From contig JAFGNQ010000062.1 of assembly GCA_016926925.1 (NCBI GenBank), forward strand, positions 1-24,628: a stretch of 24,628 nt of DNA. The letters run 5' to 3'. The notes beneath the pieces are model-generated. The model was not told the DNA's origin and did no database searches. It saw only the letters and a list, made by a program, of their open reading frames with translations. Numbering within the stretch: position 1 is the first letter of the stretch; the number at the start of each line of letters is the position of its first letter. A program made the translations under genes and the position numbers. The DNA is from Candidatus Aminicenantota bacterium. Lineage in GTDB: Bacteria > Acidobacteriota > Aminicenantia > Aminicenantales > Aminicenantaceae. Of this stretch, positions 7,056 through 24,173 are shown in pieces.

Positions 7056-8543
7056 TCACTGCCCGGGCTTAGGGGGAATGGCTTTGGGGAGTTTGGCGAA
7101 GATACGTCTGTAAATTTCGGGGTAGGCGTCTTTTCCTCCGATCAGGAGAAAGGTGAGAGGCATCGCTTCTTTGGCCTTCCGGCTCATTGCCTGAACGATA
7201 TTCCGGATATCCCACTGGGCAGCGGAGTCTTCTCTCAGCCTGGAGATGTGATACAGCTCTCTCGCATTGAGTTTAATCAGGACTCGTCTCCTGTGGGAGT
7301 TGGTGAGAATGTATTCGGCGCCGGAATCCATATTCTTCTTGAGCGCTGTGTAGGCGGCATTGGTCCGGTCGATCAGGTCCAGGAACTGTTTTTCTGCACC
7401 TACCTCCTTGACCGAAGGGGGGACCATCACTCCCAGTTCGGGCTCATATCGTTGAGCGGTCAGAGTCGCGATGCGGTGCCTCTTCAATTGGGCAAAACAG
7501 GTGGCCGATACCACAAGGTCAAAAGTCAGATCCACGTACTCGAACTCACGGAGGACAGCGTCAAAAAACTCCATATGACGGAAGGCGGCCAGTACCAGGT
7601 TTTTTCTTTCCCGATCATCCATAGCCTCTGCTTTTTGCAGGCACCCCTTATAGGAAAGAGCAGAAGAAGTGTGTATCAAAGCAGCGATCAGCCTCGTATC
7701 CCCATCGGGCGTATGATCCACAACAGCAGCTGTCTTATCGGCAAACCGGGGCGGCTTTTCTGAGTCATGCCCGATTTCTTCTTGCAGATCTGTATAGGTC
7801 CTGGTATCAAAATCGCTGGCTTCCGTAAAAAGTATGATCGAGGGTGCGACCTCTTTAGCCAGAGCGTATATCTTTTGGTTGAGTTCTTCGATCTCTACCA
7901 AATTCTTGGCAGCAAACCGACGAATAAGAAACTCGAGGTTCCGGGCATTGGCCGTCAACCCGAGCTGGCCTAAGGTGGCTAGACTCAACACATAGCGTGC
8001 GTCTTCCATGGCCCAGCCGTTCAACAAGGCATGCTTTCTGGGATTTTGGGCCAACGCTTTATACTTATCGAAGAAAAAGGGCCTGAGTTTCTTGAAAAGA
8101 AAGTTGTAGAGGGCGTTTTGAGCTTTGACGGTTTCCAGAAATTTGCGCTTCTGCCCCGATTTCCTCACTTCATCGGGAAGGATGTAATCATCTCCCAGTT
8201 TGATGTAACGCTGCGATTTCTCGGTATAGGAACACAGCCGAAACTTCTCGATTTCTTCGATGGCCAGCCGACTGACGCCGATAATATCGAAATTGAATAC
8301 CGCATGTTCGGCCACCGAATGATGACCCATCTTGAAGATGATGTTCTGGTTCGACCTTCGGGCCCTTTCAACTTCCTCTCTCGATGCCGCCCTCAGCTTG
8401 TCCACGGAACGAGGATCTCGAGAAATGCGTGCATAGGCGGCTGATAAAGTCTCGGGTGTGATATTCCCGAGGTCGGGACGCATTGTCTTTAGTTCGTTGA
8501 GGGCTTCGCTGTCGACATTGTATCCGGCAAGAAGGACTTTCAT
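7056..8543 (-). CDS. thyX: Tandem two-domain ThyX-like flavin-dependent thymidylate synthase
   Basis: ThyX methylates dUMP to dTMP with methylene-tetrahydrofolate, FAD and NADPH. A usual ThyX has about 220-250 residues and acts as a tetramer; this protein has 495 and contains two ThyX domains. Domain 1 (about 1-245) has GHHSVAEH (73-80), a signature reduced to KFR-LCSYTEKSQRY (100-113), EDARYVL (180-186) and TANAR (197-201). Domain 2 (about 280-480) keeps RHR (355-357) but its following motif is shortened to IATLTAQRY; it retains LNAREL (425-430) and AAQWDIR (441-447). The halves thus seem to keep complementary parts of one motif. Start ATG 8543 has AAGG 7 nt upstream; an in-frame GTG lies directly before it. 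The gene follows aspA by 17 nt. Confidence 0.88.
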   Translation of the reverse strand: MKVLLAGYNVDSEALNELKTMRPDLGNITPETLSAAYARISRDPRSVDKLRAASREEVERARRSNQNIIFKMGHHSVAEHAVFNFDIIGVSRLAIEEIEKFRLCSYTEKSQRYIKLGDDYILPDEVRKSGQKRKFLETVKAQNALYNFLFKKLRPFFFDKYKALAQNPRKHALLNGWAMEDARYVLSLATLGQLGLTANARNLEFLIRRFAAKNLVEIEELNQKIYALAKEVAPSIILFTEASDFDTRTYTDLQEEIGHDSEKPPRFADKTAAVVDHTPDGDTRLIAALIHTSSALSYKGCLQKAEAMDDRERKNLVLAAFRHMEFFDAVLREFEYVDLTFDLVVSATCFAQLKRHRIATLTAQRYEPELGVMVPPSVKEVGAEKQFLDLIDRTNAAYTALKKNMDSGAEYILTNSHRRRVLIKLNARELYHISRLREDSAAQWDIRNIVQAMSRKAKEAMPLTFLLIGGKDAYPEIYRRIFAKLPKAIPPKPGQ

Positions 8544-8560
8544 CACTCTACCTTAAATGC

Positions 8561-18210: not shown

Positions 18211-19119
18211 CTACAGAATTTTTACCATTTTTTCGATCGCACCGCGGGCTCTGTCACTTATCTCCGGCGAAACTTCGATCTTGTAGATCATGTCTTGCAG
18301 GGATTTCAAAACCTTGGGAACGGTGATCTTCTTCATATTGCTGCAGACGGCATGACTTCGCAGTGGATAAAAGCAACTTCTTGGATTGATTTTGTTCAAG
18401 CGATGAATGATTCCCTCCTCTGTGCCGAGAAGGATCTCAGATTTCAGAGTTACCTTTGCTTCTTTGACCATCTTCCCTGTAGAGAAGACTTTATCCGCAA
18501 GGTCGATGACTTCCGGAGGGCACTCCGGATGAACCCAGACTTCGGCCTCAGGATAGAGGGTTTTCATGTCCCTGACATCCCGGGCCGAAAAGTTATGATG
18601 GACGTAGCAATAACCATCCCAGGGAATGATCCGTGTTTTGGTATTCCGGGCGACATAAGCGGCAAGATTTTTATCCGGAACAAAGAGGATTTCGTCCTCA
18701 CCGAGAGACTGCACGACCTTGACAGCATTCGCGGAAGTGCAGCAAATATCACACTCTGCCTTGACTTCGGCAGAGGTATTGACATAGCAAACAACCTTTC
18801 TGCCCGGGTATTCTTGCTTCCACTGCCGCAATTCCGATGCGGTTATCATGTCCGCCATGGGACATCCCGCCTGAATCTCAGGGATGAGAACCGTTTTTTC
18901 CGGAGCTAAGATCGCGGCCGTTTCAGCCATAAAATGGACCCCGCAGAAGACAATGACATCGGAGTCTAGGCCCGCTGCCTTTTGACTCAACTCTAAAGAA
19001 TCTCCGACAAAATCAGCCAAGTCCTGCACATCCGGAATCTGGTAATTATGAGCCAGAATGACGGCTCCTTTCTCCTGTCGCAGGCGATGGATTCCGTCTA
19101 ACATTTCGTGCTTGTTCAA
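18211..19119 (-). CDS. nadA: Quinolinate synthase
   Basis: Condenses iminoaspartate with dihydroxyacetone phosphate to quinolinate, the precursor of NAD, using an oxygen-sensitive [4Fe-4S] cluster. The 302 residues match the short NadA type. AHNYQ (23-27) and the GDSLELS segment are canonical. Probable cluster ligands are Cys86 (AGCPMAD), Cys171 (DGYCYVHH) and Cys259 (CSNMKKI), by spacing against known NadA proteins. VHPECPPE (196-203) holds active-site residues. The start is TTG at 19119; MNKHEMLDGIHRLRQEKGAV matches the family, while an ATG at 19104 would remove part of the first helix. No nadB or nadC is nearby. An aspartate dehydrogenase or oxidase elsewhere must provide iminoaspartate. 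Confidence 0.95.
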   Translation of the reverse strand: MNKHEMLDGIHRLRQEKGAVILAHNYQIPDVQDLADFVGDSLELSQKAAGLDSDVIVFCGVHFMAETAAILAPEKTVLIPEIQAGCPMADMITASELRQWKQEYPGRKVVCYVNTSAEVKAECDICCTSANAVKVVQSLGEDEILFVPDKNLAAYVARNTKTRIIPWDGYCYVHHNFSARDVRDMKTLYPEAEVWVHPECPPEVIDLADKVFSTGKMVKEAKVTLKSEILLGTEEGIIHRLNKINPRSCFYPLRSHAVCSNMKKITVPKVLKSLQDMIYKIEVSPEISDRARGAIEKMVKIL

Positions 19120-19210: not shown

Positions 19211-19447
19211 CTATGAATCTTTGATCTTTTTGATATAAACCTTAAACAGGTCGCCCTCTTCCTCTAATCCAAGATACTCCTGTCCCGTTTGTCTGCACCA
19301 TGCCGGCATGTCTTCTTTGATTCCTTTATCCGTCGAGAGAATCTCAAGAACCTCGCCTATTTTCATATCTTGAATTTTCTTGGCCGTTTGTATGATCGGC
19401 ATGGGACAGAGGAGGCCGTAGCAATCGAGTGTCGTGTCCGCTATCAT
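19211..19447 (-). CDS. TusA/SirA-like sulfur carrier protein
   Basis: A 78-residue protein of the TusA family, which carries persulfide sulfur on a conserved cysteine. LDCYGLLCPMP places the active Cys14 in the CPxP motif, with a second cysteine at residue 9. The rest fits the two-layer beta-alpha-beta-alpha-beta-beta fold, including the typical TDKGIKEDMPAWCRQTGQ stretch. In E. coli TusA receives sulfur from IscS for tRNA thiolation; others supply molybdenum cofactor or sulfur oxidation. Here it directly follows iscU and the NifS-like gene, so a part in sulfur delivery to this assembly system is plausible. No Shine-Dalgarno sequence is visible. Confidence 0.88.
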   Translation of the reverse strand: MIADTTLDCYGLLCPMPIIQTAKKIQDMKIGEVLEILSTDKGIKEDMPAWCRQTGQEYLGLEEEGDLFKVYIKKIKDS

Positions 19448-19504: not shown

Positions 19505-20077
19505 CTAGACCCGCACTTTTGTCGCTCCACACTGCGGACATTTGTCCTCTTCTTTACCGATCAAACAACCGCAATCATCACACCTGTCCAGCTCTACATG
19601 ACACAGACTGCACACATCTTCGTAACCCTCAATCGGGCCGTCACAGTAGGGACAGTGGCAGTCTTCCTTTTTCGCCTTCTTTTTTTCAGGCCCGTTCATG
19701 GACCCTCTGGATTTTTTTTCCCTGAAGTTCTCTATGGCTTTATGGAGGGCGTCTGCACCCAGGTTCGAACAATGCAGCTTATTCTTCGGAAGCCCCCCCA
19801 GTTCTTCGGCGACCAAATCGTTGGTGATGGCCATCGCCTCTTCGATCGTCTTCCCCATGGCCATCTCGCTGACCATGCTCGAAACAGCAATAGCCGCTCC
19901 GCACCCAAATGTCTTGAATTTCACATCCGCAATCCGATTGTCCTTGACTTTTATATAAAATTCCATCATATCGCCGCAGACGGGATTGCCGACTTTTCCC
20001 ACTCCATCGGCATCTTCGATAGTCCCGACATTCCGGGGATTCTGGAAATGATCCATCACTTTTTCGCTGTATATCAT
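19505..20077 (-). CDS. iscU: IscU-like Fe-S scaffold with C-terminal double zinc ribbon
   Basis: Scaffold on which Fe-S clusters are built. Residues 1-122 are a normal IscU/NifU-N domain: Cys34 and Asp36 in NPVCGDMM, Cys59 in FGCGAA, and His102-Cys103 in LHCSNLG, so all cluster ligands are kept. After a basic linker (about 123-138) comes a part not found in standard IscU of about 130 residues: four CxxC knuckles at Cys142/145, 156/159, 166/169 and 180/183, consistent with two zinc ribbons or a rubredoxin-like metal site. The total is 190 residues. AGGAG stands 7 nt before the ATG. It is 16 nt downstream of the NifS-like gene, a typical pairing. Confidence 0.92.
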   Translation of the reverse strand: MIYSEKVMDHFQNPRNVGTIEDADGVGKVGNPVCGDMMEFYIKVKDNRIADVKFKTFGCGAAIAVSSMVSEMAMGKTIEEAMAITNDLVAEELGGLPKNKLHCSNLGADALHKAIENFREKKSRGSMNGPEKKKAKKEDCHCPYCDGPIEGYEDVCSLCHVELDRCDDCGCLIGKEEDKCPQCGATKVRV

Positions 20078-20093: not shown

Positions 20094-21254
20094 CTATTTT
20101 GGATAAAGGGGGGACATTTGTCTCAATCTGTCGATGATTTCAGGAAAAACATCGAGAAGATAATCGACATCACCGGAAGTGTTCGATTCGATCAGGCTGA
20201 AAACAACGGATCCCTGGGCTGTTGCATGATCAATCCCCATGGCCAAAAGAACATGAGAGGCCTTCAACGCACGTGATGTACAGGCCGATCCACTGGCCGC
20301 AGCGATACCTTTCATATCCAAGTTCAGAAGCATGGCTTCGCCCTCGATAAATTCGACACAGAAACTGGCATGGTGGGGAAGTCGCTTTTCCGGGTGTCCT
20401 GTCAGAATCACATGGGCGACCATCTGCGGAAGACGCTCGACAAGAGAATCCCGCAGAGGCTTTATTTTATCTGCACGGATTGACAACTTCTGAAGGGCGA
20501 TCTCCGCAGCCTTCCCCATTCCGACGATCCCGGCCAAATTTTCCGCCCCAGCCCTCTTCCCGTTCTCCTGGATACCTCCGTCGATAAACGGAAGGCATCG
20601 TGTGCCTTTTTTTAGATACAAAGCCGCACTGCCGGAAGGGCCGTAAAACTGATTCCCTGCCAGACTCAAGGCATCCACTCCGGATTTTTTCACGTCCACT
20701 GGAATATTTCCAACGGCATCGATCGCATCCGTATGAAAAACCACGCCTTTTTCCCGGCAAATCTCGGCAACCTCATCGACAGGTTCTATTGTCCCGACCT
20801 CTCCGTTGGCCCACATTACAGACACGAGCGAGGTCTCATCCGCAATCGCTTTTTTTACCTCAAAGGGATCGACAAGGCCATACTTATCCACCGGAACTCG
20901 GGTGACTTTAAATCCGGACTTCTCAAGACTTTGGGCGGAATGCAGAATGGACTGATGCTCAACCGCAGAGAGGACAAGATGCATGCCTTTACTCCTCTGT
21001 GCGGAGGCGATTCCTTTAACGGCGAAATTGTTGGATTCCGTTCCGCTGGAAGTAAAAAAGATCTCGTCCGGATCGGCGTTAATCAGTCTGGCGACATTTT
21101 CTCGCGCTTCATCGATGCCCTGTGCGGATTCCTGGCCGAAAGAATGAAGGCTCTGTGGGTTGGCGTAATGCTCCTTCAAAAAAGGAAGCATGGCCTCTAT
21201 AACTGCGGGATGCAAAGGAGTCCCCGCAATGTGATCCATGTATACCCTGCGCAT
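20094..21254 (-). CDS. Cysteine desulfurase (NifS/IscS) homologue lacking the PLP lysine
   Basis: Cysteine desulfurases take sulfur from cysteine with PLP and pass it to IscU. Fold and length (386 residues) fit the family, as do FFTSSGTESNN (66-76), His100 in VEHQS, Asp176 in HTDA, and the active-site Cys325 in SGSACTS. Several essential positions differ. The canonical HKFxGPKG, with the Schiff-base lysine, reads NQFYGPSG (201-208), so Gln202 replaces Lys. Gln of DAVQA is Asp179. RSGTEN is RAGAEN (234-239). The substrate-binding Arg of RFSLGR is lost (VFSLIE, 351-356). The reading frame is clean, so this is not decay by frameshift. It may be a pseudoenzyme partner of IscU or have a new activity. 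GGAGG precedes ATG 21254. Confidence 0.88.
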   Translation of the reverse strand: MRRVYMDHIAGTPLHPAVIEAMLPFLKEHYANPQSLHSFGQESAQGIDEARENVARLINADPDEIFFTSSGTESNNFAVKGIASAQRSKGMHLVLSAVEHQSILHSAQSLEKSGFKVTRVPVDKYGLVDPFEVKKAIADETSLVSVMWANGEVGTIEPVDEVAEICREKGVVFHTDAIDAVGNIPVDVKKSGVDALSLAGNQFYGPSGSAALYLKKGTRCLPFIDGGIQENGKRAGAENLAGIVGMGKAAEIALQKLSIRADKIKPLRDSLVERLPQMVAHVILTGHPEKRLPHHASFCVEFIEGEAMLLNLDMKGIAAASGSACTSRALKASHVLLAMGIDHATAQGSVVFSLIESNTSGDVDYLLDVFPEIIDRLRQMSPLYPK

Positions 21255-21535: not shown

Positions 21536-22390
21536 TCATTCAAATTTTTCCAACAATTTATAAAGTCTTTTCGCCTCCACCTTTAAATTCGTGGCAACGA
21601 TCGGAGTTGCGCCGGGCAGGCTCAGGTCGTCAAAAGACGGCCTTTTCTCCTTGTAAATCGTTCCCACGGGCAGTCTATCGCTGTTTTGCATCATGGTTAT
21701 CGCATGGATTTTGTTCTTGGGATCGTAACCAGGATCTGTGTCTGCATCGTAGATATGATCCTGAAACCATTTTTTGGTATTGATCTTATTGTGTGTGACA
21801 CAGGGGCTGAGGACTTCCAACAAAGAGAAGCCGTTGTGCCGGATGGCAGCCTTGAGAAGAGCAGCCAGCTGTTTGGGATTGCCCGAAAAGCCTCGTGCGA
21901 TATAGGTCCCCCCCGATACAAGAGCAAGCAGAGGGCCATCCAAGGGAATCTCCTTAGAGCCATAGGGAGTTGAGACGGAGACGTAACCCTGAAGGCTCGT
22001 CGGAGAGGTCTGGCCTTGCGTCAAGCCGAAGACACTGTTGTTCACGACAATAAGGGTGAGGTTGACATTTCTGCGGGCCGTGTGGATGAAATGACTCAAA
22101 CCGATGGAGTAGGCATCGCCGTCCCCGCTAACGGCAAGAACAGTGAGGTCCTTGTTGGACAGCTTCACTCCTGTGGCAATCGGTAAAGCTCTGCCGTGAA
22201 GGCCGTGAAATCCATAGGAATTGAAATAGTTGTTCAAGCGACCGTGACAACCGATGCCCGTCACGACAACAGTCGCCTCCGGTAGAAGCCGGAGGGAAGA
22301 GGATGCCATTTTCAGAGCGGCAAACAGACCGAAGATGCCGCAGCCACGACACCAGGTCGGATCAGCCAGGTGATAAATGTCTTTTTTCAT
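21536..22390 (-). CDS. korB: 2-oxoacid:ferredoxin oxidoreductase, beta (TPP-binding) subunit
   Basis: With KorA it oxidatively decarboxylates a 2-oxoacid (2-oxoglutarate or a related one) to acyl-CoA and reduces ferredoxin; the reverse is possible. The 284 residues hold the TPP/Mg motif GDGDAYSIG (89-97) with NN at 117-118. The [4Fe-4S] ligands are probably Cys14, Cys17, Cys48 and Cys197, at almost the same spacing as in the Sulfolobus enzyme. The start ATG overlaps the korA stop by 4 nt (ATGA). No ferredoxin-like delta subunit is present, as in the two-subunit type. The substrate is not fixed by sequence; 2-oxoglutarate is the usual guess. Confidence 0.93.
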   Translation of the reverse strand: MKKDIYHLADPTWCRGCGIFGLFAALKMASSSLRLLPEATVVVTGIGCHGRLNNYFNSYGFHGLHGRALPIATGVKLSNKDLTVLAVSGDGDAYSIGLSHFIHTARRNVNLTLIVVNNSVFGLTQGQTSPTSLQGYVSVSTPYGSKEIPLDGPLLALVSGGTYIARGFSGNPKQLAALLKAAIRHNGFSLLEVLSPCVTHNKINTKKWFQDHIYDADTDPGYDPKNKIHAITMMQNSDRLPVGTIYKEKRPSFDDLSLPGATPIVATNLKVEAKRLYKLLEKFE

Positions 22391-24132
22391 CTCTTTAGAG
22401 CCTTGAGAATGGCATCGGAGATTTCAACCGGCCGGAACGTGTGTCCCGAGTATTTGTTGACATTTACCACCCGCGTGCATTCGATCCCGCGACCTTGAAT
22501 CAACGCGCTCAACTGGCCGGAGAAATTGTTCTCGACCACAAACACTTGCGCACAGCTTTCCATGAACCGCTCCACTTTTTTTTCATGAAAAGGCCAGAGC
22601 GTCCGAATCTGAAGGTATTTCGCCGACACGTTCTTTTCAGCCAAATGGTCTATCGCTTCTCTTATCGGGGAAAGCGTGGAGCCGAATCCGATAATGCCGA
22701 CATCGGCGTCACTGCGCCCCCACAGCTTTGGGGGGATGAGATCTTTTCCTGCGCTCTTCAATTTGCGCATCCGCTTCTCCATCATTTGTTCACGAATGTG
22801 CGGATCCTCATCTCTGTATCCCTTCTCGTCATGCTCGTTGCCCTCGACCAAATGGATTCCATTCCGCATGGACGGGATGGCTCTGGCCGATATTCCGTCA
22901 GGGGTGAGCTCATATCTCTTGTACTCTTTCATCGACAGCAGCTCTTCCTGCCGGAGCAGCTTGGACCTGTCAATGACGACCTTGGACAAGTCAAACTTCG
23001 GAACACTAAAATAATTTTGCCCGTAATTTTGCTCGGTGAGCAAAATCACGGGACATTGATATTTCTCAGCCAGGTTGAAAGCTGCGATCGTGAATTCATA
23101 GCATTCTTCGATCGTTCCTGGAGAAAGGACAATTCTGGGAAAATCTCCATGGGAACCGAACACCCAAAGATTCAAATCCGACTGCTCGGGTCGAGTCGGC
23201 AATCCCGTGCTCGGCCCTGCCCGCTGCACGTGGGCAACAACGACCGGGATTTCAGCCATTCCGGCCAAGCTGAATCCTTCCATCATCAAAGACGCTCCCG
23301 GACCGGAGGTGGACGTCATAGCACGCACGCCGGCATAAGCTGCGCCCAAAGCCATGTTTATGGCCGCAATCTCGTCTTCAGTCTGAACCACCAAACCGTT
23401 GAATTCAGGGAAATAGTGAACAAGCCACTGCCATATCTCGGTAGCCGGGCAGATCGGATACGCGGCAAAAAAACGGCAGCCGGCTGCCAGCGCTCCGAAA
23501 GCGATGGCCTCATCGCCGGAAATGAGGATTCGATCAACGTCCGGTCTTTCGATGAGTTTGTGACGTTCGCGGTTCGATATGATGAGTTTAGCCTGCTCGC
23601 ATCCCATGTAGATAGCCTGAATATTGTTGGCGACGACATCTCGTCCTTTTTTCCCGAGGAAAATCTCCGTTATGACTCGTTCAACGACCTCAAAATCCAA
23701 GTTGAGAATATAGCACATCCCACCCAGCAAGATCGCGTTTTTGTAGATTTCGCTCTTGAAGTTTTTCCACGCGAGTTCTCTCATGGGAAACTTATGGAAA
23801 ACCCTTCCTTTTTTGTCCGATGCTGCGATGCTCACGGCGGCCTCTCCTTCGCAGAGAACCACACCGTCGGAAGCTAAGGATCTGATGTGTCTGAGGATGG
23901 CATCGCAATCAAATGCCATGAGAATGTCGATGGCATCTCCTCTTCCGTATGATTTTTTCAGACTGGCTCGAATGGTATAATTCGTCGCTTCCCCCCTTAT
24001 GTTGGAAGGAAAATCTCTATAGGTATTGACCTCCCAGCCCTGTCTTTTCAAGATCTTTCCCAGGACATTCCCCGTAAAGAGCACTCCATCTCCTGCGAGC
24101 CCTGCGATCATAATGGATATGTCCCGAATCAT
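22387..24132 (-). CDS. korA: 2-oxoacid:ferredoxin oxidoreductase, fused gamma-alpha subunit
   Basis: A 581-residue fusion. Residues 1 to about 190 are the gamma domain (GLAGDGVLFTGNVLG, 11-25), which binds CoA or supports assembly, and about 200-581 are the alpha pyrimidine-binding domain (ISGDEAIAFGALAAGC, 204-219; EDEIAAINMALGAAYAG). The conserved YPITP motif reads YPICP (225-229), with Cys228 for Thr. The C-terminal domain contains VGIIGFGST and the EISDAILKAL end. ATG 24132 is taken as the start; a TTG codon lies directly before it. It overlaps korB and heads the long minus-strand run, about 35 nt behind an extended -10 promoter. Confidence 0.93.
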   Translation of the reverse strand: MIRDISIMIAGLAGDGVLFTGNVLGKILKRQGWEVNTYRDFPSNIRGEATNYTIRASLKKSYGRGDAIDILMAFDCDAILRHIRSLASDGVVLCEGEAAVSIAASDKKGRVFHKFPMRELAWKNFKSEIYKNAILLGGMCYILNLDFEVVERVITEIFLGKKGRDVVANNIQAIYMGCEQAKLIISNRERHKLIERPDVDRILISGDEAIAFGALAAGCRFFAAYPICPATEIWQWLVHYFPEFNGLVVQTEDEIAAINMALGAAYAGVRAMTSTSGPGASLMMEGFSLAGMAEIPVVVAHVQRAGPSTGLPTRPEQSDLNLWVFGSHGDFPRIVLSPGTIEECYEFTIAAFNLAEKYQCPVILLTEQNYGQNYFSVPKFDLSKVVIDRSKLLRQEELLSMKEYKRYELTPDGISARAIPSMRNGIHLVEGNEHDEKGYRDEDPHIREQMMEKRMRKLKSAGKDLIPPKLWGRSDADVGIIGFGSTLSPIREAIDHLAEKNVSAKYLQIRTLWPFHEKKVERFMESCAQVFVVENNFSGQLSALIQGRGIECTRVVNVNKYSGHTFRPVEISDAILKALKR

Positions 24133-24173
24133 CAATTTGCACCAGTCTTAATCTTCATAATTCCTACAGAATT

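Follow-up and report, generated by a model that had tools for sequence, protein, structure and literature searches.

Within the window, by which we mean the whole 24,628-nucleotide stretch analysed, a NifS/IscS-like gene lacks the PLP-binding lysine of cysteine desulfurases and lies next to iscU. Our best explanation, in which we place moderate confidence, is that its product works with IscU as a PLP-dead partner, its Cys325 relaying or ligating sulfur that does not come from cysteine and is perhaps supplied through TusA and DsrE2. Members of this Lys-less family occur in many anaerobes, where they probably pass on or anchor sulfur from another source and do not make it. IscS is taught as the entry point of cysteine sulfur into cluster assembly, and a Lys-less family that combines iscU, the Cys, TusA and DsrE2 offers a concrete, testable candidate for cysteine-independent assembly. 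Such assembly might suit sulfide-rich, oxygen-free habitats, of the kind these organisms presumably occupy.

At the desulfurase lysine site (E. coli Lys206) the minus-strand codons AAT CAG specify Asn201-Gln202 in place of His-Lys, as a sequence-only reading of the window had reported (Table 1). Its further description of the site was also accurate: Gln183 and the substrate Arg354 (E. coli numbering) are replaced by Asp179 and Val351, leaving no Arg at the RFSL position, the motif RAGAEN is present, and the persulfide Cys, His104 and Asp180 are retained as Cys325, His100 and Asp176. The predicted structure has the class V aminotransferase fold; the AlphaFold2 model (mean pLDDT 89.4, falling below 50 in loop 326-330 and segment 233-235) matches IscS/NFS1 and Archaeoglobus fulgidus IscS. 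The protein shares the fold, the persulfide Cys loop, His104 and Asp180 with the IscS/NifS/NFS1 desulfurases but differs from them in lacking the PLP lysine, Gln183 and Arg354, and it scores 504.3 bits against NCBIfam NifS TIGR03402, below the curated cut-off of 530.75. The E. coli IscS variants K206A and Q183E are described as having no desulfurase activity in the available excerpts of PMC9978102. We conclude that the window protein very likely has no desulfurase activity, and the automatic name "cysteine desulfurase", carried by many of its best 120 database matches, is misleading for the Lys-less family.

Table 1. Positions in the window of the Lys-less gene, its diagnostic codons and the neighbouring genes.
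Feature	Position	Strand	Basis or remark
2-oxoacid:ferredoxin oxidoreductase alpha subunit	22387..24135	minus, upstream	TIGR03710 above cut-off
2-oxoacid:ferredoxin oxidoreductase beta subunit	21536..22390	minus, upstream	TIGR02177 above cut-off
nfu, NifU C-terminal domain, 72 aa	21275..21493	minus	PF01106, 107.3 bits
Lys-less NifS/IscS-like gene, 386 aa, Cys325 kept	20094..21254	minus	intact frame, ATG at 21254, stop ending 20094
Codons AAT (20654-20652) and CAG (20651-20649), Asn201-Gln202, desulfurase PLP-lysine site	20649..20654	minus	
Codon 325 (counted from the start codon), persulfide or ligand Cys	20280..20282	minus	Cys in 377/377 aligned rows
Codon 331, Lys in the loop that follows the persulfide Cys	20262-20264	minus	
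iscU/NifU_N scaffold, 190 aa, Cys-rich zinc-ribbon-like tail	19505..20077	minus	PF01592 and TIGR03419 above cut-off
tusA sulfur carrier, 78 aa, Cys14-Pro15 motif	19211..19447	minus	PF01206, 87.1 bits
nadA, quinolinate synthase	18211..19119	minus	NF006878, 422.5 bits vs cut-off 294

The missing lysine, treated in the sequence-only reading as an anomaly of one gene, proved to be family-wide. That reading had named Lys at residue 202 of relatives as the sign of a sequence error; among the best 120 of 7999 database matches, window protein included, the residue is Gln in 119 and Glu in one, and Lys in none (one match among those listed, P0002, is 100% identical to the window protein). In the best 80 of 181 related loci, which come from several phyla, the lysine is likewise missing 80 times out of 80, and five Lys-bearing paralogs lie within the same loci. 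Together with the window, these loci give 81 orthologs, with Gln at residue 202 in 72, Pro in four, Met in two, and Ala, Gly and Arg once each. Closest to the window are loci from Candidatus Aminicenantes MAGs (L001, 76% identity), and the remaining sources include one Acidobacteriota record, Chloroflexota (mostly Dehalococcoidia), Nitrospirota, WOR-3, Smithella and records titled Deltaproteobacteria. Two classes were sampled by reading residue 202 in the best matches made into loci, plus 14 second copies. At least 27 of 80 sampled genomes from the class of G001 carry the Lys-less gene (30 best matches read, 27 Lys-less and 3 Lys-bearing), as do at least 15 of 100 from the class of G008 at full length, with a partial gene in G030. 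A further short IscS-like piece, in L049, is left aside in the counts of residue 202.

Purifying selection acts on the Lys-less genes of these relatives: among Aminicenantes, the 12 pairs with the smallest dN have NG86 dN/dS values of 0.05-0.15; distances to the window's own gene are saturated at silent sites. A sequencing error or a decaying pseudogene is therefore extremely improbable as an explanation of the window gene, given the open frames, this constraint and the same loss in the 119 other homologs and the 80 loci; nothing was found in its favour except the unusual codon.

The lysine has been lost together with other catalytic residues. Across 377 aligned rows, among which some records recur, the Arg354 position is Val or Leu in all 339 Lys-less rows, Gln183 is missing from 337 of them and His205 from most, whereas the Lys-bearing rows, with the engineered mutant P0122 set aside, have Gln183, His205 and Asn155 in 37/37 and Arg354 in 34/34 scorable cases. 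Another 24 Lys-less genes fit this pattern, their residue at the Arg354 position being Val (21) or Ile (3). The persulfide Cys is present in every aligned row, and His100 and Asp176 are invariant in all rows counted. The window's own clade has Thr or Ser at the Thr72 position in 213 of 220 rows, and Thr/Ser237 is mostly kept. Much of the PLP pocket is therefore retained, which speaks against a PLP-dead protein.

Six residues past Cys325, Lys331 is Lys in 218 of the 220 clade rows, compared with 3 of 37 Lys-bearing rows (31 of the 37 have Glu or Asp). It may contact a partner or, less likely, may substitute for the PLP lysine; the sequence-only reading had named a lysine close to the PLP aldehyde as a sign against its interpretation, and Lys331 is the candidate for such a residue. 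The invariant His100 and Asp176, the mostly conserved Thr72 and Thr/Ser237, and this Lys331 are what can be said for the view that PLP still serves another reaction, or is bound as an aldimine to Lys331 of the Cys loop. Gln183, the carboxylate-binding Arg354 and, in most rows, His205 have nevertheless gone as well, and the A. fulgidus clade does without Lys331, having Gln or Glu there in 118 of 119 rows and Gln, Glu or Ala overall. Position 202 itself can be Gln, Asp, Pro, Met, Ala, Gly, Arg or Glu, depending on the family member; free variation that extends to Pro and Gly argues against a catalytic job at this position, and a new catalytic residue at 202 was rejected as a candidate for this reason. 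We consider continued use of PLP chemistry improbable, and the earlier suggestion that the protein "may use PLP differently" draws no support from the site.

A Lys-less IscS is in itself already known. A. fulgidus IscS2 is a nearer precedent than ColD, to which the sequence-only reading had appealed: the lysine is replaced by Asp, and the available portion of PMC7585200 describes the protein as having no desulfurase activity and as providing a Cys that ligates the cluster on IscU. Its structures (PDB 4eb5, 4eb7 and 4hvk, and 4r5f for the D199K mutant) include a complex with IscU; over 364-373 aligned residues it has the same fold as the window protein, and 44% of these residues are identical. 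In both A. fulgidus IscS2 and the window family the PLP lysine is replaced, His205 has become Asn and the Cys is kept, and the changes of Gln183 to Ala and Arg354 to Leu in the former resemble the window family's losses. The archaeal protein differs in having Asp at the lysine site and no Lys at 331. It belongs to a separate clade with full support; the window clade and A. fulgidus IscS2 lie on the same side of a branch (support 75/65 and 71/32), although two alternative placements were not rejected (p-AU 0.257 and 0.1). A second precedent is Methanosarcina acetivorans IscS1, which in the same available portion of PMC7585200 is Lys-less, accompanied by IscU1 and assigned a proposed A. fulgidus IscS-like role. 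It too is archaeal, was obtained in inclusion bodies according to that source, and is likened to the window protein by description only.

The setting with iscU, tusA and dsrE2 seems to be new, as far as the open-licence PMC literature shows. In the window, the minus-strand order runs from the alpha and beta subunits of a 2-oxoacid:ferredoxin oxidoreductase through nfu, the Lys-less gene, iscU and tusA to nadA, the last of which encodes quinolinate synthase, a [4Fe-4S] enzyme. The sequence-only reading had placed an intact frame between nfu and iscU with good spacing and ribosome sites, and had not included tusA and nadA downstream. Its account of the flanks is borne out by gaps of 20 bases from nfu and 16 bases to iscU and, by eye, by GGAGG before the start of the Lys-less gene and GAGGAG before that of iscU. 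No dsrE2 lies beside the window's Lys-less gene; tusA is present.

Among related loci the same association recurs. Of 96 Lys-less genes, 89 are followed by iscU, 65 have tusA downstream and 40 have dsrE2, compared with 13, 0 and 0 of 30 Lys-bearing relatives; these are counts of distinct genes with 1.4 kb downstream, identical proteins counted once, and are not independent events, the Lys-less rows representing one or two origins only. A further 33 genes (17 Lys-less, 16 Lys-bearing) with less than 1.4 kb downstream were left out. Fisher values of 2.6e-12 for tusA and 2.2e-6 for dsrE2 ignore kinship and are not to be read as probabilities. Of the best 80 of 181 loci, 76 extend at least 600 bases downstream, and in 71 of these iscU begins inside that distance. 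For the 58 loci with 2.5 kb, the counts are 51 for tusA downstream (54 when both sides are considered), 30 for a DsrE2-family gene, 47 for a zinc-ribbon match and 15 for nadA. The three DsrE2-like proteins that were tested have strong PF13686 matches (166-177 bits) and fall below the cut-off of 210 for NF047629 SulfCarrDsrE2 (78-84 bits). A search of five Aminicenantes genomes showed the one gene of the DsrE2 family to be located elsewhere. Additional tusA-dsrE2 pairs were seen in L200 (G009) and L195 (G002), with no iscS match within the surrounding 3.5 kb.

Key residues of the partner proteins are conserved. The IscU ligands Cys34, Asp36, Cys59, His102 and Cys103 are present in 75/75 rows and the catalytic Cys of the TusA Cys-Pro motif in 68/68 (the window counted twice in each), and one DsrE2 Cys is kept in 29/29 (the query counted twice). 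The zinc ribbon that follows IscU is a C-terminal tail in Aminicenantes and a separate ORF with 8 conserved Cys in Dehalococcoidia (e.g., L054:11576-11761). The tail of the window IscU (19505-19660, minus) is matched by BLAST to such separate ORFs and has no Pfam match at E 0.001; that of the L008 IscU reaches 23.4 bits against DZR, under the cut-off of 27.3. The alternation between tail and separate ORF suggests a fusion of interacting partners.

In the mechanism we propose, a former NifS/IscS desulfurase would have given up PLP chemistry on cysteine, and PLP, if bound to the window protein, would be structural. The protein would dock the adjacent IscU as a dedicated partner, as has been proposed for A. 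fulgidus IscS2, and loop Cys325 would hand sulfur to IscU or act for a time as a ligand while the cluster is being formed. We consider a role as IscU partner likely. The earlier proposal of a pseudo-desulfurase that uses Cys325 with IscU gains support in this respect, from the Cys in all rows, the joint catalytic losses, the adjacent iscU and the low dN/dS. The sulfur would come from another source, most likely sulfane sulfur or sulfide by way of TusA, plus DsrE2 in many relatives, although TusA and DsrE2 as the source, and this direction of flow, are put forward tentatively.

In the accessible part of PMC11302665, Cys328 lies 4 A from TusA Cys19 in the E. coli IscS-TusA crystal, a distance that makes transfer from TusA to Cys325 sterically reasonable. 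Arg219, by count the equivalent of E. coli Arg223 in the TusA-binding patch, is present in 218 of 220 clade rows and in 7 of 37 Lys-bearing rows. Against a TusA relay stand the flow from IscS to TusA in E. coli, where TusA and IscU compete (same part of PMC11302665), the Metallosphaera TusA and DsrE3A, reportedly unreactive with NaSH or polysulfide (PMC4175335; DsrE2B reacted with nothing tested), and the lack of an adjacent dsrE2 in the window. The Rhd-TusA-DsrE2 trafficking of sulfur oxidizers likewise has TusA and DsrE2-family proteins encoded together, but according to PMC4175335 it is linked to Dsr or Hdr-like complexes, whereas the carriers of the window family are linked to an IscS-IscU pair. 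The MIS system (MisS/MisU) resembles the window family in being a bare IscS-IscU pair; MisS is named a type I cysteine desulfurase in the available text of PMC12442378.

A simpler role, rather unlikely in our estimation, is that of a pure scaffold, with the protein serving IscU as a docking platform and as the source of a Cys ligand, free sulfide supplying the sulfur, and TusA acting downstream or being co-regulated only. This is the proposal published for A. fulgidus IscS2 (available portion of PMC7585200), and it accords with the 31 of 96 Lys-less genes that have tusA beyond 1.4 kb downstream or missing, and with its upstream position in Nitrospirota. A scaffold has, however, no need of a tusA and dsrE2 linkage that is specific to the Lys-less copies.

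Other desulfurases in the same genomes also bear on function. A Lys-bearing NifS-type paralog with 41-45% identity to the window protein was found in all five Aminicenantes genomes searched, and the window's host probably has one as well. A Lys-bearing NifS or SufS relative occurs in 9 of 11 genomes searched (none in G007 and G008), and a second copy with His-Lys in 14 of the 15 class-of-G008 genomes with a full-length Lys-less gene. Because such relatives are widespread, cysteine-derived sulfur would be available to most of these cells, which counts against the IscU partner fed from another source that we favour. Their coexistence is also consistent with the Lys-less protein regulating the Lys-bearing paralog, for example if the two formed heterodimers or competed for IscU. 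We think this quite unlikely: 89 of the 96 Lys-less genes have an iscU of their own, and in the IscU tree, in which 3 of 14 Lys-linked IscUs were flagged as long branches, the IscUs beside Lys-less genes group on one side, apart from the Lys-linked ones, though not decisively (85/63; 88% of bootstraps). G008 (Dehalococcoidia bin61, CP070693.1, loci L054 and L186), a 1.12 Mb chromosome of unknown completeness, shows the Lys-less protein as the only NifS/SufS-type found; of five other PF00266 matches in it, the four examined look like transaminases and the fifth is under the cut-off. G008 thus also counts against regulation of a paralog, though its uncertain completeness leaves it little weight. 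G007 was set aside as a genome without a Lys-bearing desulfurase, its second NifS-like fragment running into an N stretch.

Taken more broadly, Lys-less iscS, iscU, the zinc ribbon, dsrE2 and tusA could form a multi-phylum bacterial system in which a PLP-dead acceptor is charged in reverse from inorganic sulfur and clusters are built without cysteine, an extension that we regard as doubtful. In the open-licence PMC literature we found no report of a Lys-less iscS set with iscU, tusA and dsrE2, and no title or abstract treating a bacterial Lys-less family.

Elsewhere in the window, a 496-aa protein (7056-8546, minus) has two stretches that match PF02511, the family of ThyX thymidylate synthases, and is about twice as long as is usual for ThyX.
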